From Betaproteobacteria bacterium (GTDB lineage: Bacteria; Pseudomonadota; Gammaproteobacteria; Burkholderiales; Eutrophovitaceae): DNA of 64,000 nt. The stretch lies in assembly GCA_020354125.1 (NCBI GenBank), contig CP070643.1, positions 3,834,439 through 3,898,438 of the forward strand. The letters are read 5' to 3'. How positions within the stretch are numbered: the first letter of the stretch is position 1; every line of letters starts with the position of its first letter. The notes below the pieces were generated by a model. It worked only from the letters and a program-made list of their open reading frames with translations. It did not search any database and was not told where the DNA came from. A program made the translations under genes and the position numbers. Positions 48,249-58,448 of this stretch are shown piece after piece.

Positions 48249-49697
48249 TCAAGCTTTCAAGTCACGTACGGCTGAATAAATAGCCAACGTCTTTTTGCGC
48301 GCAGCCGCATGATCAACAATCGGCCCGGGATAGGTTTGCCCTAGCAAGCAACCGCTGGCGCGTTGCACTTCCGGTGGCATCTTCCACGGCTCGTGCAAAT
48401 ACTTGTCAGGCACATCCGACAGTTCGGGTAACTGTGATCGGATGAACACACCTTCTGGATCGAACTTTTTCGACTGCGTCACTGGATTGAAGATACGGAA
48501 GTAAGGTTGCGCATCGCAGCCGGTCGAGGCACACCACTGCCAGCCGCCATTGTTTGCCGACAAATCGAAATCGTTCAGGTGTTGCGCAAAGTAGCGTTCG
48601 CCCCACCTCCAGTCGATCTGCAGATCCTTGACCAGGAATGAAGCGCTGACCATGCGCAGGCGGTTGTGCATATAACCGGTGCAATTGATTTGCCGCATGG
48701 CGGCATCGATCAACGGATAGCCGGTCTCGGCATTGCACCAGCGGCGGAAATGCGATTCGTTGTTTTCAAACTCGAGATCATCATATTCACGGCGGAAAGC
48801 GCCATCGACCACATGCGGGAAATGATGAAGAATTGAGAAGTAGAACTCGCGCCAGATCAGCTCCGAGAGCCAGGTACTGGCGCCGTCCCGGGTGTCAGCG
48901 TCGGCATCCAGTTCCATGGCCGATCCGACTAACCGGCGTATCGAAATGGTTCCGAACCGCAAATGAACCGACAATCGTGAAGGTCCTGCCATAGCCGGGA
49001 AATCACGGCACTGAGCGTACCCGCCGATACGGCCAAGGAAGTCGCCGAACAAGCTGTCTGCACCGGTGGCGCCAACTGCGATACCGAGCCGCAAGAGATT
49101 GGTGCGTTTGAAACCGATGCTCTCCAACTCAGGCATCGGTCCTGCGTCTGCTGCGGCCAGCGATCCGGCGCGCTCAGCGACCGGGTAAGGATCAGTGTCG
49201 CATTGGCCAAGCTTCGCAAGCCACGCCTTCTTGTACGGCGTAAAGACCACATAGGGACGCTGTTCGGCGTTGAGAATCTCCGATTTTTCGAAGATCACCT
49301 GATCTTTGCAGGTATGCCAGGAACACGGCAGCGCCTCGAGGCGGGCGGCGACGTCGCGGTCACGGTCAACTGCGACCGGTTCGTAATCGTGGTTGGCGTA
49401 AACGGCTTGAATGCGGTGCTTGACGACGAAGGCCGGGACCTCGTCGCGGGCCCGGCCATGCAGAACATGCAGATCGCCACCGAGTGCTCTCAGCGTTGAC
49501 TTGAGCTCGACAAGGCTGTGCCAGATGAATTCAACGCGTCTGTCGCACTTGCCGGGAAGCGCGTCAAGTATTTCGGTATCAAATACAAACACGCAATAAA
49601 CGGCGCCTGCTTCGTCTAGCGCTCGGCTCAAGGCAGCGTTGTCGTCGGTGCGCAGGTCGCGCCGGAACCACACCAGCGCGCGATCATAGAGCTTCAT
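48249..49697 (-). CDS. phrB: Deoxyribodipyrimidine photolyase
   Basis: Blue-light enzyme that splits cyclobutane pyrimidine dimers. 482 residues: antenna-binding N-terminal domain (LVWFRRDLRTDDNAALSRAL) and FAD-binding C-terminal domain with YMHNRLRMVSASFLVKDLQIDWRWGE and ANNGGWQWCASTGCDAQPYFRIFNP. The FAD electron-relay tryptophans look preserved. Last gene of the operon below the CarH-like regulator, a usual pairing for light-induced regulons. Confidence 0.96.
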   Translation of the reverse strand: MKLYDRALVWFRRDLRTDDNAALSRALDEAGAVYCVFVFDTEILDALPGKCDRRVEFIWHSLVELKSTLRALGGDLHVLHGRARDEVPAFVVKHRIQAVYANHDYEPVAVDRDRDVAARLEALPCSWHTCKDQVIFEKSEILNAEQRPYVVFTPYKKAWLAKLGQCDTDPYPVAERAGSLAAADAGPMPELESIGFKRTNLLRLGIAVGATGADSLFGDFLGRIGGYAQCRDFPAMAGPSRLSVHLRFGTISIRRLVGSAMELDADADTRDGASTWLSELIWREFYFSILHHFPHVVDGAFRREYDDLEFENNESHFRRWCNAETGYPLIDAAMRQINCTGYMHNRLRMVSASFLVKDLQIDWRWGERYFAQHLNDFDLSANNGGWQWCASTGCDAQPYFRIFNPVTQSKKFDPEGVFIRSQLPELSDVPDKYLHEPWKMPPEVQRASGCLLGQTYPGPIVDHAAARKKTLAIYSAVRDLKA

Positions 49698-49967
49698 CAG
49701 GCCATCAGATCACAATTGGCTGGCCAGATCGTTGGCCCATATCGGGCTTGGCGCGCACAGAAAGGGATGAAAAAAGATCAGCCCGGGCCGGAGCCATGAC
49801 GGTCCTTGTGTGCCAGCTACGACTTCGTTCAATCCGGGTTGGGGATGGGAGAGGCCCGGCTTGAAGCGACGGAACTGCATGCTGGCCCGCGCTGAAGTAA
49901 ATCGCGACTTACAAAGGCCATTACGCATTTCTAACCGCTTCGGATTCACCGTCCATTTCAAGCTGAT
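49698..49967. other. 270-base gap between phrB and the SnoaL-like gene
   Basis: Open frames exist on both strands but none has a ribosome site or recognisable protein character. No promoter or terminator was convincing. It is the only long gap inside the operon. Confidence 0.4.
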
Positions 49968-50402
49968 TCATGCCATTGCCCGGCGCAGCCGCCGGATCAA
50001 CCAGCCGAGCAGTGGAAGCTTGGCATATAGTTCCTCGCCGGTATCCCAGTAATCCCGGTGATAACTGACCTTCCCGGACGCGTCGAAACGTATATGGCTA
50101 ACGCCGTGTATGGTCTGTTCGCCATCACCGCGCATAAAGCGGCTACGAAAGTGCATGTCCCAGACAACAAACCCGTCATGATCCGTCCCCAACCATCCTT
50201 GAATGACAAACCTGGGATCCTGCATCCTCCGGTACATGTGCCGGAAGATCTCCTCAATCTTGTCGACGCCATTGAATTCATTGAACGGATCCTTGAAATA
50301 GGCGTCTGCCGTGTACACGTCGGTCAGGTTCGCAACCGTCTCGGGCGACATCGTCTCGTAGAACGAAATCAGTCTGTCGATGTGGGCGGCGCGCATGTTC
50401 AC
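49968..50402 (-). CDS. SnoaL/NTF2-like protein
   Basis: 144 residues of the cone-shaped NTF2 fold: LISFYETMSPETVANLTDVYTADAYFKDPF, VDKIEEIFRHMYRRMQDPRF and a C-terminal sheet with HRDYWDTGEELYAKLP. Members are small-molecule isomerases, hydrolases or binding proteins; no substrate can be assigned. Overlaps the SDR gene by 4 bases and regularly accompanies the Cfa/DUF1365/FAD gene set. Confidence 0.85.
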   Translation of the reverse strand: MNMRAAHIDRLISFYETMSPETVANLTDVYTADAYFKDPFNEFNGVDKIEEIFRHMYRRMQDPRFVIQGWLGTDHDGFVVWDMHFRSRFMRGDGEQTIHGVSHIRFDASGKVSYHRDYWDTGEELYAKLPLLGWLIRRLRRAMA

Positions 50403-51178
50403 AAACCGGTGATGCGATGAACCAGGGGAAAGAACAGACGGTATGGCAGCAGCCGCAACAGTTTCATCAAGCGGGTAAAACGCTTCGGAAAATCGATTTC
50501 GAACTGCCCGCGGCTGAGTCCGCGCAGCATTTGCTCAGCTGCTTCCTGTGGCGAGATCAACGCCGGCATCTCGAACTCGTTACGATCAGTCAACGGCGTC
50601 TTGACGAATCCGGGATTGACCAGATACACGTTTACACCTTTTGGCCTCAGGTCAAGATACAACGTTTCTGCAAAATTGATCAGTGCCGCCTTGCTTGCGC
50701 CGTAAACAAGGCTGGTTGGCAGTCCGCGATATCCGGCAACACTGGAAACCACGGCAATTCCTCCATCACCTCGGGCCACCAGATCGGGAACGACCAATTC
50801 CAGTGTTCGCATAACGCCGAACACGTTGATCATGAACAAGTGCTCCGCGGTGCCAGCGTTCAGCTCCCATGCTCTTACCGGCAAATGCGTGCCAGCAAGA
50901 AGGACCAACAGATCAATCCCCGACCACAAGTCTCTTAACCGCGAATACGACTCATCAATGTCAGAACTATCGGTTACGTCCACCGGTAACACCATGCTCT
51001 GTTCCGGCGGAAATTTCCGCGCCAACGCCTCAAGCGCATCTGCCCCGCGTGCGCTGAGCGCCACCCGTGCGCCACGCTCGAGCAAAGCTTCGGCAAACGC
51101 GTGGCCGATGCCACTGCTGGCACCAATCACCCAGACGCGCTTGCCTCGCCAGTCACTGATGCGGGTGTTCAGCGCCAC
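50399..51178 (-). CDS. Short-chain dehydrogenase/reductase
   Basis: NAD(P)-dependent oxidoreductase of 259 residues. Cofactor loop VIGASSGIGHAFAEALLERGA, active Ser in VVSSVAGYRGLPTS, and YGASKAALINFAETL (Tyr-x3-Lys). After PGFVKTPLT the tail is basic and hydrophobic (RLMKLLRLLPYRLFFPLVHRI), suggesting membrane contact, which fits work on lipid substrates. Six bases after the DUF3833 gene. Confidence 0.92.
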   Translation of the reverse strand: MALNTRISDWRGKRVWVIGASSGIGHAFAEALLERGARVALSARGADALEALARKFPPEQSMVLPVDVTDSSDIDESYSRLRDLWSGIDLLVLLAGTHLPVRAWELNAGTAEHLFMINVFGVMRTLELVVPDLVARGDGGIAVVSSVAGYRGLPTSLVYGASKAALINFAETLYLDLRPKGVNVYLVNPGFVKTPLTDRNEFEMPALISPQEAAEQMLRGLSRGQFEIDFPKRFTRLMKLLRLLPYRLFFPLVHRITGL

Positions 51179-51184
51179 ACTACA

Positions 51185-51718
51185 TCATCCTTTCTTGCGC
51201 AAAGACAGCGTCACCTCGCCAAGACGAAAGCCGAACTTGCGCATCTCCGACCGGTTTAACATAACCTTTTCGTCGATTAGGTACATCCAGTCGTCGAAGT
51301 CGACGTTGTAGGTCTTACCGTCGACATCGAGCGCGAGAACATAACGCCAGTGCAGCGTGTTGCCGTACGCCGTGCCCGTTGCCTCTCCGATGACGTCGTC
51401 TGCTGTTCCGGTGTAGTTGTGTTCATCGATCCTGGTAATGGTCCAGACCCGCCGGTCGGTGGTGCCATCAGAATAAACAAAATCCTCTTCCAGCGTGCCG
51501 ACATTGCCTTCCCAGCTGCCTTTGATCGCAACATTGAAGCGTTTAACCACTTCTCCGGAGCGGTTCTGAAACATGCCGTGTGCCTCGATCTCCCCATCAA
51601 AATACTGGCGCAGATCGAGCACCGGGCGTTCGTCACGATACGAGTCAACGCGCGGAGCCGCGCAACCGGCGATCAGTGTTGCAGCGGCGGCGAGAAACGC
51701 GATCGGAAGAAATTTCAC
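51185..51718 (-). CDS. DUF3833 lipoprotein
   Basis: 177 residues with a lipoprotein signal (FLAAAATLIAGCAAPRVDSY, Cys about residue 19) and a lipocalin-like beta pattern: LDLRQYFDGEIEAHGMFQNRSG, VWTITRIDEHNYTGTADDVIGEA and DDWMYLIDEKVMLNRSEMRKFG. Matches DUF3833, a family found almost only in this type of cluster. It could carry or bind a lipid in the periplasm; not shown. Shares one base with the MFS stop/start. Confidence 0.85.
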   Translation of the reverse strand: MKFLPIAFLAAAATLIAGCAAPRVDSYRDERPVLDLRQYFDGEIEAHGMFQNRSGEVVKRFNVAIKGSWEGNVGTLEEDFVYSDGTTDRRVWTITRIDEHNYTGTADDVIGEATGTAYGNTLHWRYVLALDVDGKTYNVDFDDWMYLIDEKVMLNRSEMRKFGFRLGEVTLSLRKKG

Positions 51719-53019
51719 TACATGCCTCCCTCGGTTACGAGTTCAGCCGAACGGTTATGCCGCGCGTCAACCGGTGCCACCCACAAAATGGCGGCACCGA
51801 ATAGCTTGATTGCACACGGCAGCAAGGCGTAGGTCGCAGAAAGCGCAAGCGTTTCATCAGCACTCGAGCCAGGCTGGTAGCCGAGGAAGGCCAGCAGCGG
51901 TAGTGCGACGCCCGCCGCCGCAGCCAGGTTGAGCTTTTCTATCATTTGCCACAGTCCAAAGTACGCACCATTAGCCTTGTGTTCACTCTCTCCACGATCG
52001 ACAAGATCGGCCAGGATTGACGGCGGCAGCGCGAGTTCTGCACCGTAGGCCACACCCGACATCACGCAGACGATGGCGAAAGCGACCACATCACCCGCGC
52101 CGAGCGCAAAAGCCCAGACGAAGGCCGCCACCGCCATCACCATACCGAGTAGCCATGCGTTCTTCTTGCCAGTACGACGTGACACGGCGACCCACGCCGG
52201 CATGCTGAGTGCCCCCGCAATGAAGTAGGCAACCAGAAACACGCCGGACAAGCGCGGCGTCTGCAGCACGTCCTCGACAAAGAACAGAATCAAGGTCGCA
52301 GGAATGGCGCCGGCCACCCCGCTGGGTATGATCACCGCGAGCAACCAGCGGAACTCGCGGTGGCGAAATGGCGTAAACATCGCGCGCCACGAACGGCGTG
52401 GCTGCGCGACCACCGGCACACGGGGTGTCAGTCGCCACGTCAACAAGGTGCACACCAGAAGGACCGGCACAAACATCAAACTGAACTGCACTACACCGGC
52501 AGCCTCGCCCGAACGCTGCGTCAGAACCTCGGGCAATGTGGCCGCAAGCATCACCCCCAGTATCCCAAGCGCAGCGCGAGCAGCAGTTATGCGCGTGCGC
52601 TCGTGATAATCCGATGACAGCTCGGCACCGATAGCAAGGTAGCTGATTGACGCGGCGCTAAAGCCGACATAGACAACAATCAACGATCCTGCAAGCCACC
52701 ACAACAACGCGGTGGCGCTTGAAACCGGCGGTTGGAACAAAGCAACAAAACCCACCGCCAGTAAAGGCACACCGAGGAGCACAATGATGAATCGACTCCA
52801 GCGCGTGCCGGCCGCGCGATCACTCAGGTAACCGAGCAGCGGATCCTGGATGGCGTCGAGCAGCCTTGCGGCAAAAAGAATCAGACCGATCCAGGCTAGA
52901 GGGGCACCCAGCGTTGTCGCGTAATACTTCGGGACGTGGACGTAGATCGGCAACGCCGCCATAGCCAGCGGTAACGCAAGCACCGAGTAACCGAGGAGCG
53001 CACCACGCGACAGCGTCAT
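51718..53019 (-). CDS. MFS transporter of the GPH (glycoside-pentoside-hexuronide) type
   Basis: 433 residues with twelve hydrophobic segments. The loop after helix 2 has LLDAIQDPLLGYLSDRAAGTRWSRF, the GPH version of the MFS motif A, and the second half has LPPSILADLVDRGESEHKANGAYFG, also GPH-like. In this gene neighbourhood the cargo is probably not a sugar; a lipid-related role is inferred only from context. Confidence 0.9.
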   Translation of the reverse strand: MTLSRGALLGYSVLALPLAMAALPIYVHVPKYYATTLGAPLAWIGLILFAARLLDAIQDPLLGYLSDRAAGTRWSRFIIVLLGVPLLAVGFVALFQPPVSSATALLWWLAGSLIVVYVGFSAASISYLAIGAELSSDYHERTRITAARAALGILGVMLAATLPEVLTQRSGEAAGVVQFSLMFVPVLLVCTLLTWRLTPRVPVVAQPRRSWRAMFTPFRHREFRWLLAVIIPSGVAGAIPATLILFFVEDVLQTPRLSGVFLVAYFIAGALSMPAWVAVSRRTGKKNAWLLGMVMAVAAFVWAFALGAGDVVAFAIVCVMSGVAYGAELALPPSILADLVDRGESEHKANGAYFGLWQMIEKLNLAAAAGVALPLLAFLGYQPGSSADETLALSATYALLPCAIKLFGAAILWVAPVDARHNRSAELVTEGGM

Positions 53020-53039
53020 GATCCAGCACTAACCTCGCT

Positions 53040-53675
53040 TCAGCTTTGGCCGATGAGGGATTCGCGTAATCCGGGTTCACGGGTACGCGGATCGAGCCAA
53101 ATGGAAAAGAACGCAAGCGCGAATTGATCGTCGGCGACTGTGCCGACCAGACGACCATTGTGATAGAACTGCGCGCCGACGCCAGGAAGATTCACGCCAG
53201 TGAGTCGGTCTCCCTTGCGGATATCCGGGAATACCCGCGCCATCTCAGCCGCCCATTGACGAAGAATTTCGCGATCGCCAAAGCCGAGGCGACGCATTTC
53301 CTTGACGCTGGTGTTGACCAGCCGCTTGGCCGGAATGTTGCGCGCGTAACGGATGTCGAGCGCGAATTCACTTTGCACAGTAACCGCATCCGAACGCGTC
53401 CACAGCGCAGCGTCATAAATGTGTAGTCCGAGCCAGCGCAAGCGACCCTCGCCTGCCGGACGAAGATCCGGCATTGCGCCACTAACCGAAGCTGGCAACG
53501 GCGCCATTGCCTGGCCCGCAAAAGGAATGAACAGAATCAACAGCAATAGCAGTCTGGCAGGGTGTTGAGAAACGTTACGAACGGGCTTCAGGCGGGCGAG
53601 CACCGTTTCTGAATTAAAACGGCTGTAAGCCCGGATCAGGCCCGCGCAGTAGTTTTTCAACATCCTGTTAAGCAT
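53040..53675 (-). CDS. Chalcone-isomerase-fold protein with a repeat-derived N-terminus
   Basis: 211 residues. From about residue 45 there is a signal-like helix (LLLLLILFIPFAGQAMA) and then a chalcone-isomerase-like domain (LRWLGLHIYDAALWTRS, IPAKRLVNTSVKEMRRLGF, FALAFFSIWLDPRTREPGLR). Bacterial members are of unknown function and are not flavonoid enzymes. The first 26 or so codons are written by the dispersed repeat. ATG 53675 has GGAG seven bases upstream and overlaps the cfa stop by 8 bases. Confidence 0.85.
   Translation of the reverse strand: MLNRMLKNYCAGLIRAYSRFNSETVLARLKPVRNVSQHPARLLLLLILFIPFAGQAMAPLPASVSGAMPDLRPAGEGRLRWLGLHIYDAALWTRSDAVTVQSEFALDIRYARNIPAKRLVNTSVKEMRRLGFGDREILRQWAAEMARVFPDIRKGDRLTGVNLPGVGAQFYHNGRLVGTVADDQFALAFFSIWLDPRTREPGLRESLIGQS
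53597..53671 (-). repeat. Dispersed stop-codon-anchored repeat, copy 2
   Basis: On minus it begins on the cfa stop (TTAACAG) and continues through GATGTTGAAAAACTACTGCG, TGATCCGGGCT, CAGCCGTTTT and ACGGTGCTCG, matching copy 1 at 1931-2008. Here it is read in frame as the first residues of the chalcone-isomerase-like protein (LKNYCAGLIRAYSRF). Confidence 0.75.
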
Positions 53676-54885
53676 TGATCAACTCCATCTGTGCGACATT
53701 GATACTCCCCGCCCTGAATCCTGCTTCGCAATAGGTAAGGTAGAAGTTCCACAGGCGCTCGAAGCGCGCATCGAAGCCATACTTTCGTAAAGAGGGCGCG
53801 GCTGCGTTATAACTCGCGCGCCAGCGCGCTAGCGTTTCCGCGTAATCGAGACCAAAGAAATGACACTCTCCCAACTCCAGCCCAGCGCGCTCGGCTTGTT
53901 GCGCGAATGCCGAAGGTGAAGGCAACATGCCGCCAGGAAACACGTACTGCTGAATGAAGTCGGTGCTGCGCCGGTAGTTTTCGAACAGCTCATCGGCGAT
54001 CACAATGGTCTGTATCAGTGCTCGACCGCCGCGACTGAGGCGCTTTTTCACGGCTGCGAAATAACCGGGCCAGAAAGCCTCACCGACCGCCTCGAACATT
54101 TCGATCGAAACAACAAAGTCGAACTGCCCCTCGACATCACGGTAATCGCAGATTTCCGTTTGCACTTGGCGATCCAGGCCAGCTTGACGCATGCGTCGCG
54201 AACAAAACGACCACTGCTCTTCGGACAGCGTGATTCCATGCACGCTAGCGCCACGCTCACGCGCCGCGACTTCGGCAAATCCACCCCAACCACAACCAAT
54301 TTCCAGGACCCGATCACCCTGTTGCACAGCGAGGCAATCCAGGATTCTGCGATACTTGGCGAGCTGGGCGTCCTCGAGACTGAGGCTTGCTTCTGCTCCA
54401 AACAAGGCTGACGAATACGTCATCGTCTGGTCGAGCCAAGCGCGATAGAAATCGTTGCCAAGGTCGTAATGAGCGTGAATATTACGCCGCGCATTACCCC
54501 GTGTATTACGTCGCATCAAATGGCGCAAACGATAGAGCATCTTTCCCCACCACTTGCCGCGCATCGCTGCTTCGAGAACGCCGCGGTTTTGCAACGCCAG
54601 TTCAAGCAGCGCTGCTAGATCCGGCGTGTCCCATTTGGATGCCATATAGGCTTCTGCAAAACCGATATCCCCCGACTTGAGAACATCGGCACAAACACTC
54701 CAGTCACGCACATGCAGCGTTGCATCCTGGCCTACTATGTCGCCCTCGAACATGAAGCGGTTGCCGTCTGGAGTAACAAACTCGAGACGGCCGTGGCGCA
54801 GCCGCGATAACAGAGACAGCAACACGCGCGCCGCCCGCGGCACTGCTGGCAATGTCTCGCGCAAAGTAATCTCTACCGGTTTCAT
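53668..54885 (-). CDS. cfa: Cyclopropane-fatty-acid synthase family SAM methyltransferase
   Basis: Adds a methylene or methyl group from SAM to double bonds of membrane lipid acyl chains. 405 residues from the ATG at 54885 (ribosome site AGGAG); the longer open frame overlaps DUF1365. N-terminal lipid-binding part; then YDLGNDFYRAWLDQTMTYS, SAM loop VLEIGCGWGGFAEVAARERG, ITLSEEQWSFC and SIEMFEAVGEAFWPGYF with the bicarbonate-site Glu. Of the subgroup that travels with DUF1365 and the FAD gene. Confidence 0.93.
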   Translation of the reverse strand: MKPVEITLRETLPAVPRAARVLLSLLSRLRHGRLEFVTPDGNRFMFEGDIVGQDATLHVRDWSVCADVLKSGDIGFAEAYMASKWDTPDLAALLELALQNRGVLEAAMRGKWWGKMLYRLRHLMRRNTRGNARRNIHAHYDLGNDFYRAWLDQTMTYSSALFGAEASLSLEDAQLAKYRRILDCLAVQQGDRVLEIGCGWGGFAEVAARERGASVHGITLSEEQWSFCSRRMRQAGLDRQVQTEICDYRDVEGQFDFVVSIEMFEAVGEAFWPGYFAAVKKRLSRGGRALIQTIVIADELFENYRRSTDFIQQYVFPGGMLPSPSAFAQQAERAGLELGECHFFGLDYAETLARWRASYNAAAPSLRKYGFDARFERLWNFYLTYCEAGFRAGSINVAQMELINA

Positions 54886-55640
54886 CTGGTTGTCTCCTGT
54901 TGCGGCGGAAGCGGCTTCGGAACGTAACGTACGCCCCGCAGCCACAGCTTCAGCGCCTGCAAGTGGATGCGCGCCATCACGCCCAACGTCATCCACGGGT
55001 AGAGAAAGAATGCCCGGAGCAAGCCTGCGATGTTGAAAGCCGAAGCCTTGCCCCAGATCGCCGTGAGCAGCAAACGCCCTTGCGAGTCCTCGTAGTCGAT
55101 GTTGACGTGACAGGAGGGGTACTCGGAGCGGAAACGGAAGACGTACTTTCCTTCGATCTGACAAAACGGGGATACGTGAAACACCTTACGCGCCTGTAAT
55201 ACGTCGTCAGGCTCGATCAGGCTTCCGTCGGGATGGGCCAACAAATAGTTGTGATGTTCGCCAAAGGTATTATTGACTTCGCACAGGATGGCTCGCAGTC
55301 CGCCATCCCGGTCGTGGCACAACCAGAAACTGACCGGATTGAATACGTAGCCCAGAACCCGCGGAAATGTTTGCAGCACCACATCGCCGTCGGCAGTGTG
55401 GATTCCTTCGCGCAGCAAAAGCTGGCGAATCCAGGGCTCGGGAGCCGTCCCGTCGCGAGCACCGTGGTCGCGAAACTGAAACGAGAACAGATTCCAGCGG
55501 TTGACTGAAAACAGAGGGTTGCTGACGTCGTTCAGCTTCGACAGTGGCAAGCGTAAAAAGAACACGCGATAACGAAACGTGTTCCGACGCGGGCGCAACC
55601 GCGCATGCATGACATTGCCATAGTAGATGGTCGGCTTCAC
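54882..55640 (-). CDS. DUF1365 family protein
   Basis: 252 residues, GTG start overlapping the FAD gene stop. Conserved stretches: YYGNVMHARLRPRRNTFRYRV, TFPRVLGYVFNPVSFWLCHDR, CEVNNTFGEHHNYLL and KVFHVSPFCQIEGKYVFRF. The family is always next to an FAD oxidoreductase and a Cfa-like gene. The Asn/His-rich loops suggest catalysis, but the reaction was not recognised here. Confidence 0.9.
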   Translation of the reverse strand: MKPTIYYGNVMHARLRPRRNTFRYRVFFLRLPLSKLNDVSNPLFSVNRWNLFSFQFRDHGARDGTAPEPWIRQLLLREGIHTADGDVVLQTFPRVLGYVFNPVSFWLCHDRDGGLRAILCEVNNTFGEHHNYLLAHPDGSLIEPDDVLQARKVFHVSPFCQIEGKYVFRFRSEYPSCHVNIDYEDSQGRLLLTAIWGKASAFNIAGLLRAFFLYPWMTLGVMARIHLQALKLWLRGVRYVPKPLPPQQETTR

Positions 55641-56944
55641 GCCACGCCCCTGATTTCCACCTCGGCTGCACGGTGCTGCTGCCACGGCGCTGCAACCCCC
55701 AGACCGTTGACTACCTCCAGGGCGGAGCGCAGCCCGTCTTCGTGAAAACCGTAGCCGGTCCAGGCACCACAGAACCAGGTGTTGTTCCTGCCCTGTATCG
55801 AAGGCAGCTCGCGCTGCGCCTCGATAGCGGCGCGATCGAAAATCGGGTGGGCGTATTCGAAGCGATCAATGACCGAATCCGCGTCTGGCTCGTGGGTCGG
55901 ATTCAATGTCACCAGAACCTGCCTTTCGAAGGGAAGCGGTTGCAGGCGGTTGATCAGGTAGCTGACACTGACTGGGCGGCCTTCAGGTCCGGTACTGCCG
56001 GCGATGTAATTCCAGGCAGCCCACGCGTCGCGCATGCTGGGTAGCAAGGAAACGTCGGTATGCAACACGGCGTGATTCATTTGATATCCAACCCGCGACA
56101 GCACACGCCGTTCGGCTGGAGACAGATCTTCGAGAATGCTTAAGGCCTGATCACTGTGGCAGGCAAATACGACTTGAGAGAACGTTTCCGTTGCGCCGCC
56201 GACAGTCTTGATGCACACACCCTGGGCAGTACGCGCCACGGATGAAACAGGCGTTGCCACGCGCACATCGTTGATGCCCGCTGCAAGTTTCCGTACATAT
56301 TCGCGTCCACCACCACGCACGGTCTTCCAAACCGGGCGGTTCGATATGCCCAGCAGGCCGTGGTTGTGGCAAAAACGGAAAAAAGTCTCGACCGGGTAAT
56401 CGAGCATGCGTAAAGTCGGGCACGACCAGATTGCCCCGCTCATTGGTAGCAGGTACCAATCACGAAATGCTCGCCCGAATCCGCGCCGGTCAAGAAAATC
56501 GCCTAGTGAGCCTTGGCAGCCGCGACCACTCATCAGCGCCTGGGTGCTTTCACGGTTGAAACGCAGTATTTCCTTGAGCATTCGCCAGAACTCAGGCTTG
56601 ATGAGGTTGCGCTTCTGGGCAAAGATCGTCGCCAGATTACTGCCGGCCCATTCGAGTTTCTCCTCGTCGACCCGGACGCTGAACGACATGTTGCTGAGCG
56701 CATGCGGCACACCCAGATGCTCGAACAGCGCAACAAGATTGGGGTAAGTGCGGTCGTTGAAAACCAGAAAACCGGTGTCGACCGGCGCGGTGAAGCCGTC
56801 TAGCGTCACGTCAACAGTATTTGTGTGGCCGCCCAGATAGGTGTTGGCCTCAAACAAGGTGACCTGATAACGACGCGACAACAACCACGCGGCAGACAAG
56901 CCGGCGATGCCAGCGCCGATTACGGCGATTCGTTCCGGCTTCAT
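55637..56944 (-). CDS. FAD-dependent oxidoreductase (amine-oxidase fold)
   Basis: 435 residues from the ATG at 56944; the open frame runs 37 codons earlier without conservation. FAD-binding IAVIGAGIAGLSAAWLLSRRYQVTLFEA, GGHTNTVDVTLDGFTAPVDTGF, and the C-terminal WFCGAWTGYGFHEDGLRSAL. Related proteins in Rhodobacter act with a Cfa-like methylase in making furan fatty acids, so a lipid-acyl desaturase role is reasonable here but unproven. Confidence 0.93.
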   Translation of the reverse strand: MKPERIAVIGAGIAGLSAAWLLSRRYQVTLFEANTYLGGHTNTVDVTLDGFTAPVDTGFLVFNDRTYPNLVALFEHLGVPHALSNMSFSVRVDEEKLEWAGSNLATIFAQKRNLIKPEFWRMLKEILRFNRESTQALMSGRGCQGSLGDFLDRRGFGRAFRDWYLLPMSGAIWSCPTLRMLDYPVETFFRFCHNHGLLGISNRPVWKTVRGGGREYVRKLAAGINDVRVATPVSSVARTAQGVCIKTVGGATETFSQVVFACHSDQALSILEDLSPAERRVLSRVGYQMNHAVLHTDVSLLPSMRDAWAAWNYIAGSTGPEGRPVSVSYLINRLQPLPFERQVLVTLNPTHEPDADSVIDRFEYAHPIFDRAAIEAQRELPSIQGRNNTWFCGAWTGYGFHEDGLRSALEVVNGLGVAAPWQQHRAAEVEIRGVA

Positions 56945-57003
56945 GCTGGTCAACGCTCTATATATATAGTCATCAATGAACGGATCTGGACGACGTGTCG
57001 ACC

Positions 57004-57438
57004 TCAGATCTCGCCAGACAACCGCGCCGGGACGTGAGCCGCCGTGCGTGAACATGCCGGGTCGCTACCGACGGGCGCGGGCTCGCTGGTTCCGCTCAAC
57101 ACCCCCTGCTCAACATCGCCAATCGGACGCAGCTCGAGCCAAGGGGTCATCGTCGGCCCTGTGGTATCGCCCACTGCCTGGGCATGGGAAGAGAAATAGA
57201 ACAGCAGGTCGGAATCGGCTGGAGCGGCGGTCTCGGAATAAAGGTCCCGCTCCGGCTTGTCTGTTCCACGAACACCCGTTTCGATCAGGCCATCATCACT
57301 ACCGAAAGAACCATTTCCGATAGAAGCGTGACGATTAGCTGCAACCATCTGAATTTCCATGCTAGTCGTCACATGTTGTGGGCACGACATGGTTCCATGT
57401 ACAACCAGCGGGAGAAACAGAATCATCAAAATGTTCAT
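57004..57438 (-). CDS. Small exported protein of unknown function, first in the operon
   Basis: 144 residues; hydrophobic start MNILMILFLPLVVHGTMS resembles a signal peptide, the rest is polar and unlike anything known to me. The ATG at 57438 has AGGA six bases upstream, and that AGGA is part of an operator-like 13-mer. It lies 60 bases before the FAD gene and 34 bases after the promoter -10. It could be a real small protein or a long leader with a chance frame. Confidence 0.5.
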   Translation of the reverse strand: MNILMILFLPLVVHGTMSCPQHVTTSMEIQMVAANRHASIGNGSFGSDDGLIETGVRGTDKPERDLYSETAAPADSDLLFYFSSHAQAVGDTTGPTMTPWLELRPIGDVEQGVLSGTSEPAPVGSDPACSRTAAHVPARLSGEI

Positions 57439-57441
57439 GCT

Positions 57442-57454
57442 TTGTCCTAGTCAA
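57442..57454 (-). promoter_or_regulatory. 13-mer operator-like site, left copy
   Basis: On minus TTGACTAGGACAA, one base different from the right copy at 57505-57517, which is in opposite orientation. Just upstream of the 57438 start; contains its ribosome-site AGGA. Confidence 0.45.
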
Positions 57455-57471
57455 AACGGCGTGGAGGTGGT

Positions 57472-57500
57472 AAATTAGCGACTAAATTGGAATTAGTCAA
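57472..57500 (-). promoter_or_regulatory. Promoter of the lipid/photolyase operon
   Basis: On minus TTGACT (-35, 57495-57500) and TAATTT (-10, 57472-57477) with a 17-base spacer. The inverted repeat at 57480-57498 occupies the spacer and touches the -35, where MerR-family proteins bind. Confidence 0.65.
57480..57498 (+). promoter_or_regulatory. Inverted repeat GACTAA-N7-TTAGTC, candidate CarH/LitR operator
   Basis: Perfect 6-bp arms around ATTGGAA. It sits midway between the two divergent genes and between -35 and -10 of the operon promoter. A possible -35 for the regulator gene (TTGGAA, 57487-57492) also lies in it, paired at 17 bases with TAGGAC. Confidence 0.6.
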
Positions 57501-57504
57501 CTAT

Positions 57505-57517
57505 TTGTCTAGGACAA
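57505..57517 (+). promoter_or_regulatory. 13-mer operator-like site, right copy
   Basis: TTGTCTAGGACAA: perfect inverted arms TTGTC/GACAA around TAG. It ends 7 bases before the ATG of the MerR gene and overlaps its possible -10, leaving almost no leader. Confidence 0.5.
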
Positions 57518-57524
57518 CTCGGGC

Positions 57525-58448
57525 ATGGCTCACGACACGAAAGACGGCGCAGCGACAATCCTGTTCAATATCAGCGCGGTAGAACGCGAGACAGGTCTTT
57601 CCAAGGACACTCTGCGCGTCTGGGAACGTCGCTACGACTTTCCTCACCCGGTTCGCGACGACAATGGCGATCGCGCATACACCACTGGTCAGATCGCAAA
57701 GCTACGTTTAATCAAGCGTTTATTGGATCAAGGGCATCGGCCGGGCAAGATCATCGGGCTGGACGACGAGCATTTGGAAAGGCTGGTCACGGAGCCAGCC
57801 GGAGATCAGCCGCCGAGACAGGACATCGCGGTCTACATACGCCTGGTCAGGTCCCATCAGGCGCTCGAGTTACGGCGCCACCTGTCCCAGGCGATGGCCC
57901 GCCAAGGACTGCAGAAATTCGTTGTCGACACGGTGGCGCCCCTTACCCGTGCGGTCGGTGAAGCCTGGATGCGCGGCGAGATCGCCGTTTTCGAGGAGCA
58001 CCTCTACACTGAGTTGATGGAGGGCTTGCTTCGCAACGCCATCACAGCCCTGCAACCACAGGGGAATGCGCCGCGCGTATTGCTGACCTCGCTGCCGAAT
58101 GAACCGCACAACCTCGGCTTGTTGATGGTCGAAGCCATGCTCACAGTCGAAAACGCACTATGTATTCCACTCGGTACTGAAACACCGGTAACCGAAATTG
58201 CTCAGGCCGCCCAAGCGCACAGAGTAGATATGGTCGCTTTGTCTTTTAGCAGTGCCTACCCGGAAAGCAAGGCGATCGACGCGTTGCGGGAACTGCGCTC
58301 GTTGCTGCCAGACTCAACACTGCTTTGCGCTGGCGGCGCAGGCATTGCTCGTATACGTCGCCGCCTCGATGGTATTCAGCTGATTATCGAGCTTGAGAAG
58401 ATGTGCGAACTTGTCAGACAATGGCGCGCTGAGCATTCAAGCTACTGA
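57525..58448 (+). CDS. MerR-family B12-binding photoreceptor regulator (CarH/LitR type)
   Basis: Repressor that, in the dark, holds adenosylcobalamin and binds DNA as a tetramer; light breaks the Co-C bond and frees the promoter. 307 residues: MerR helix-turn-helix at about 13-80 (GLSKDTLRVWERRYDFPHPVR), helical B12 cap with the light-sensor motif W148-x9-E158H159, and a Rossmann B12 domain with E193xHxxG198 whose His195 would ligate cobalt. All key residues are present, so AdoB12 light sensing is expected. Divergent from the photolyase/lipid operon. Confidence 0.92.
   Translation: MAHDTKDGAATILFNISAVERETGLSKDTLRVWERRYDFPHPVRDDNGDRAYTTGQIAKLRLIKRLLDQGHRPGKIIGLDDEHLERLVTEPAGDQPPRQDIAVYIRLVRSHQALELRRHLSQAMARQGLQKFVVDTVAPLTRAVGEAWMRGEIAVFEEHLYTELMEGLLRNAITALQPQGNAPRVLLTSLPNEPHNLGLLMVEAMLTVENALCIPLGTETPVTEIAQAAQAHRVDMVALSFSSAYPESKAIDALRELRSLLPDSTLLCAGGAGIARIRRRLDGIQLIIELEKMCELVRQWRAEHSSY

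Follow-up and report, generated by a model that had tools for sequence, protein, structure and literature searches.

The locus examined here raises the question of how a regulator gene and the gene cluster diverging from it are controlled from a 76-bp intergenic region. Within the window (the whole stretch of DNA analysed, 64,000 nucleotides), the genes concerned are as follows.

57525-58448, + strand: LitR/CarH-like regulator, 307 aa, with MerR DNA-binding, B12-binding_2 and B12-binding domains
57004-57438, − strand: first operon gene, a small protein with a signal-like N-terminus
48249-57055, − strand: rest of the likely operon, presumed to be co-transcribed
48249-49697, − strand: DNA photolyase

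After its first gene, for whose product (57004-57438) no Pfam family was found, the operon encodes an FAD amine oxidoreductase, DUF1365, a protein of the cyclopropane-fatty-acid-synthase type (CMAS) and a chalcone-isomerase-like protein, and further on MFS, DUF3833, SDR, SnoaL-like and DNA photolyase proteins. In the regulator, the N-terminal MerR domain is followed by B12-binding_2 and then B12-binding, all above the Pfam cut-offs, and its top-scoring PDB entries are 3whp, a probable transcriptional regulator, and 5c8d, which is CarH, with E about 1e-25. The residues W148, E158-H159 and E193-x-H195 (Wx9EH, ExH) are invariant in 14 aligned orthologs; by alignment and PDB match, the Thermus CarH cofactor residues W131, E141, H142 and H177 correspond to W148, E158, H159 and H195 of the regulator. 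Three of the four elements of the light-sensor signature GxxW, EH, GxxH and GxxxP, as given in PMC11796333, are present, and GxxH reads NxxH, with N192 replacing G. A cobalamin adenosyltransferase is also encoded in the genome. The regulator is probably a vitamin-B12 light sensor of the class I LitR/CarH-like type, with N192 as a point against. Photoreceptors of that class form AdoCbl-dependent tetramers that dissociate and come off the DNA in light.

The intergenic region itself contains the following elements.

57442-57454, + strand: putative left operator TTGTCCTAGTCAA, read directly from the sequence
57505-57517: putative right operator, TTGTCTAGGACAA in + strand letters (read directly from the sequence) and TTGTCCTAGACAA in − strand letters
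57448-57453, + strand: TAGTCA in the left operator, proposed −35 of the regulator gene
57471-57477, both strands: shared near-symmetric −10 region TAAATTA
57471-57476, + strand: TAAATT, proposed regulator −10
57477-57472, − strand: TAATTT, proposed operon −10
57495-57500, − strand: TTGACT, proposed operon −35 and repeat R1 of the right operator, an imperfect TnnACA
57511-57506, − strand: TAGACA, repeat R2 within the right operator, exactly 11 bp from R1
57505-57517: inverted cap TGTCC (GGACA on the + strand), within the right operator
57480-57485 and 57493-57498: GACTAA-N7-TTAGTC, central inverted repeat, judged a chance match

A sequence-only reading had reported three elements within these 76 bases, namely the two outer copies and the central repeat with its promoter, and direct reading finds each of them in place. 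The outer copies are indeed inverted with one mismatch, and each lies beside the start codon of one divergent gene: the ATG of the 144-aa ORF at 57438 (−) is 3 bp off the left copy, and the regulator ATG at 57525 is 7 bp off the right copy, which on its own is a perfect palindrome (TTGTC-N3-GACAA). Both sites also hold AGGA as a plausible Shine-Dalgarno sequence, 10 nt from the regulator ATG in the right copy (+ strand) and 6 nt from the first operon ATG in the left site (− strand). Genome-wide, a paired layout whose cores are separated by 44-58 bp is seen at this locus only. When the 76 bp were shuffled 3000 times by dinucleotides, an equally good outer pair arose at a frequency of 0.0003, and a perfect inverted repeat with 6-bp arms and a loop of 3-20 at a frequency of 0.172.

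Orthologous regulators were gathered by the regulator protein alone, not by upstream sites, from the best 30 of 51 places and the best 80 of 568 relatives; after removal of 6 of the 110 loci as duplicates, 104 upstream regions remained (103 besides the window). An ortholog is present in 46 of 150 genomes of the order, and the closest among the best 80 of 568 relatives is L037, at about 85-86% identity. The names of these relatives mark the genome as betaproteobacterial. Of the 103 relatives, 99 carry the motif TGTCNNNGWCA ahead of their regulator gene, as against 1.2 in shuffles, and none of the 103 upstream regions contains the central inverted repeat. Phylogenetic footprinting upstream of related regulators, which had been proposed as a check, thus upholds the outer sites and not the central one. 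The proposal that the outer pair serves as operators likewise gains support, since the sites track the regulator gene and such a pair is rare by chance, so that putative operators are probably the right description.

A left/right pair was detected in 81 of the 104 loci, at a spacing of 63 bp in 34, 64 in 13, 62 in 2, 74 in 26, 75 in 1 and other values in 5; that is, 76 of the 81 are spaced at 62-64 or 74-75 bp. When clusters were drawn at 70% protein identity, these spacings were modal in 35 of 50 clusters, 11 had no paired member and 4 had another spacing. The 23 loci without a pair comprise some cut by the anchor and others truly lacking one. In the alignment of the 104 regions, a few picked left sites are really right sites (e.g., L017, L021, L035, L036, L041), so the frequencies of the conserved blocks are slightly blurred; spacing, −35/−10 profile and repeat counts were based on pairs instead. 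If the T at 57443 in the left TGTC is taken as offset 0, the blocks that are conserved comprise the left site, offsets 28-34 (consensus TAAGATA), offsets 52-57 (TGTCAA, the operon −35 on the other strand), offsets 63-68 (TGTCTA or TGTCCA) and, in some loci, offsets 74-79 (TGTTCA). The loci, many of them short, have the FAD gene in divergent orientation to the regulator in 76 of 104 cases. L037 and L032 carry ORFs similar to the first operon gene in the corresponding position; the product of this gene varies from a small exported-looking protein in the window's clade to one that, judged by eye, resembles glutathione peroxidase (L014, L020). An extra TGTC-N3-GAC-type site lies inside or beside the first ORF in L038, L045, L053, L089, L092, L103 and L104; it is downstream of the operon start, some 130-170 bp to the left of the left site.

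Across the 76 loci with the common spacings, the best mean matches fall at offsets 5 (−35) and 28 (−10) on the + strand and at offsets 52 (−35) and 29 (−10) on the − strand, which gives a spacer of 17 bp in both directions, the same as that of TTGACT/TAATTT on the − strand of the window. Among the 35 cluster representatives, 32 have a + strand −10 at 16-18 bp from the left site (500 runs with shuffled spacers: mean 3.2, max 11), 22 have the operon −35/−10 (mean 2.3, max 9) and 22 have both, the offsets 27-29 having been picked after inspection of the profile. A29 and T33 are found together in 28 of the 35, against a mean of 3.3 over all scanned offsets, and also in the window. The window's own boxes are weak (operon TTGACT/TAATTT, 5+3 of 12; regulator TAGTCA/TAAATT, 4+4 of 12; the operon −35 consensus in relatives is TTGACA). 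A strict consensus promoter scan found none; the operon promoter was missed because no more than 3 of the 6 positions of its −10 agree with the consensus, and for the same weakness the window passes the + strand test only. It is conservation among relatives that argues for a probable operon promoter here.

The predicted start sites lie near 57483 (+) and 57465 (−), 18 bp apart. Bidirectional bacterial promoters were reportedly described by Warman et al. in 2021. According to PMC10268837, divergent start sites of bidirectional promoters are 7-25 bp apart, mostly 18, and the commonest bacterial layout combines an 18-bp distance with reciprocal −11A/−7T. The reciprocal −11A/−7T features are present at this locus, where the start sites are predicted only. 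The sequence-only reading had placed the regulator −10 in the right copy, with a nearly leaderless mRNA; this gains no support, the match near the right copy being 2.41 and 2.37, against a best mean of 3.75 of 6 at 28 bp right of the left site (76 loci). An extended scan of the right copy gave no signal for a −10 either. The position at 28 bp leads to a predicted regulator leader of about 42 nt that holds the right copy.

The Thauera loci are informative about the left site. In L067, L083, L090 and L109, TGTCCTGGACA-N17-TAACAT or TAAGAT is kept and the right array is absent; the 0.6-1.7 kb of sequence that these loci offer showed no divergent operon gene, and all of them but L090 have a long + strand ORF upstream. 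In L095 (Thauera propionica), the operon genes are on the regulator's strand, and the unit reads TGGACA-N17-TAGCAT. Because the Thauera loci keep just this unit, the fixed distance between the left site and the −10 belongs to the promoter of the regulator itself, although this case is one genus and perhaps one event.

CarH operators, as described in PMC9304148, are tandem 11-bp repeats with TnnACA, one of which holds the −35. In the window, R2 (TAGACA) is a perfect TnnACA, R1 (TTGACT) and the left TAGTCA are imperfect, and R1 and R2 are 11 bp apart. Three perfect TnnACA repeats occur in 22 of the 76 loci, and R1 and R2 are both perfect in 11 more.

The reading that we favour, with a probability of about 0.74, is that the 76 bp form a bidirectional sigma70-type promoter flanked on both sides by operators of the CarH/LitR type, an arrangement that mediates dark repression both ways and release by light. 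Its basis is the conservation, the spacing, the promoter geometry and the association with the regulator; binding by the regulator, repression, and light and B12 dependence are suggested by relatives of known function. The two promoters would share the overlapping near-symmetric −10 region, and each −35 box, 17 bp from its −10, would double as an operator half-site. Each operator would thus cover the −35 of one gene and lie in the 5' leader of the other, the left at about +12 to +24 of the operon and the right at about +23 to +35 of the regulator gene. In darkness, a regulator molecule carrying adenosylcobalamin would bind at both operators and block RNA polymerase both ways; because both directions are blocked, the photolyase/lipid operon would be off and the regulator self-limiting. 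Light would break the cofactor bond, the protein would be released, and both transcripts would start. More speculative, and rather doubtful as a whole, is the stricter form of a mirror promoter, in which one symmetric −10, half-site −35s and AGGA inside the operators would be combined with a single dark CarH tetramer on both sites, and one light event would open both directions.

The same observations bear on what the two sites do and on what binds them. A DNA loop as the main mechanism, with a tetramer joining the left and right sites and both promoters trapped between them, is conceivable but tentative. The spacings of 62-64 or 74-75 bp are close to 6 or 7 turns, and a clade of six loci (L012, L015, L040, L055, L102, L108; members at least 79% alike and at most 57% alike to others) keeps 64 bp though its spacer is without a clear −35/−10. 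The promoter model leaves the spacing of this clade unexplained, so another reason is needed, of which looping is one option. However, two 17-bp spacers round a common −10, together with one 11-bp repeat, already account for the 63 bp; in loci with 74 bp the middle repeat keeps its position at 63, and single partnerless sites persist in Thauera. In L015, by eye, the six-locus clade shows an apparent + strand TTGACT-N17-AATAAT promoter ending at the left site. The GGACA cap could also be taken as a mere Shine-Dalgarno sequence, in which case the palindrome would not be an operator feature. AGGA does lie inside the cap in 39 of the 76 loci, often with an ATG 5 nt on, and in many cases would suit the regulator well as a Shine-Dalgarno sequence; yet 34 of the 76 loci, selected partly by the cap, keep GACA without AGGA, so translation alone fails to explain the cap. 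Moreover, the inverted GACA cap is kept on the outermost repeat in 40 of 44 loci without a third repeat, which were chosen regardless of the cap, and in the 20 loci with a third repeat it follows R3 in all 20 and R2 in none, never capping the middle repeat. This account therefore seems unlikely to us.

As to the binding protein, the outer sites may be bound mainly by another MerR-family protein of this genome, such as the paralog G000:C1:1815864, which lacks a B12 domain. The exact 13-mer also stands beside this paralog (L116), whose own upstream region carries an 11-bp TnnACA repeat, yet the sites track the B12-type regulator gene in 99 of 103 relatives, and we consider the paralog an improbable candidate for the main role. 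Least probable by far is that GACTAA-N7-TTAGTC is the site of the MerR-type regulator and the outer pair a second system, as had been suggested. The perfect symmetry of the repeat and its location at the promoter speak for this. MerR activator sites are typically inverted repeats within a −35/−10 spacer of 19-20 bp. The spacer here is 17 bp, the repeat is lost even in L037 and is absent from the other relatives, and a comparable repeat is obtained in 17% of shuffles. The repeat and the promoter are both present, as claimed, but the repeat is not wholly inside the spacer because its right arm overlaps the −35 box; as an operator it was rejected, the right arm being just that box. What the sequence-only reading recognized is a real regulatory layout that relatives conserve, but the element it put at the centre is the wrong one.

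Compared with known systems, the layout is a variation on CarH/LitR control and not a new kind of system. According to PMC9304148, CarH of Thermus, Bacillus megaterium and Myxococcales is similar in regulator architecture, 11-bp TnnACA repeats and a −35 inside a repeat, and some species place operators at divergent promoters. The operators described there, however, are tandem arrays at carotenoid-gene promoters, whereas here there is one site on each side of a shared −10, an inverted cap closes the outermost repeat and a lipid/photolyase operon is the target. PmlR2, a class II LitR of Pseudomonas mendocina, is described in PMC9758184 as likewise having two sites, one over the −35 and the second between the start site and the start codon of the light-induced gene; it differs in being without the full B12-binding pair, in its LOV partner and in its sites, TGTACA-N12-TGTACA. 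A search for the PplR1/PmlR2 site T(G/A)TACA-N12-TGTA(C/T)A over 3074 bases gave 2 hits, at 3 mismatches and outside the 76 bp, which is not above chance. The symmetric −10 bidirectional promoters of PMC10268837 share the 18-bp distance between starts (predicted here) and the reciprocal −11A/−7T; unlike in those, both directions here enter genes, a −35-like box is retained for each of them, and in the proposed model each −35 is also a half-site for the repressor. Neither the operator, its letters nor the layout was found for Betaproteobacteria in titles and abstracts of the open-access literature. From the favoured reading follows a prediction, down to single bases, of how B12 light sensors of Betaproteobacteria are controlled, with regulator and operon on one −10. 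The locus may also serve as a natural system for asking why symmetric bidirectional promoters are retained in bacteria and, in synthetic biology, as a candidate green-light switch acting in two directions, and the motif TTGTCYWRGACAA as a search handle for the light regulons of unstudied bacteria.

Across the genome, matches to the 13-mer pattern at one mismatch do not rise above chance (75+71 vs 82+80), so exact TTGTCTAGGACAA alone was used genome-wide; the composite site TGTCNNNGACANNNNTTGACN was uninformative outside the locus, with 5 matches vs 2 in the control. Exact TTGTCTAGGACAA occurs at 4 places, where about 0.13 would be expected (4.24 Mb, equal base frequencies), and the other three places are before two Adhesin_E/fasciclin gene pairs (L113, L116) and one sulfatase-like gene (L112). 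In L112 (G000:C1, site 816935), it is about 90 bp before the likely start of the sulfatase-like gene, and in L113 (G000:C1, site 986125) just upstream of the second Adhesin_E/fasciclin pair. In L116 (G000:C1, site 1817062) / L002, a MerR-type paralog without B12 domains precedes the Adhesin_E-fasciclin gene pair, and the two may form a second unit with the same operator grammar. Between them, the repeats TAGACA-N5-TTGACA and TGGACA-N5-TCAACA accompany the 13-mer, and TGGACA-N5-TAGACA stands before the MerR-only paralog itself.
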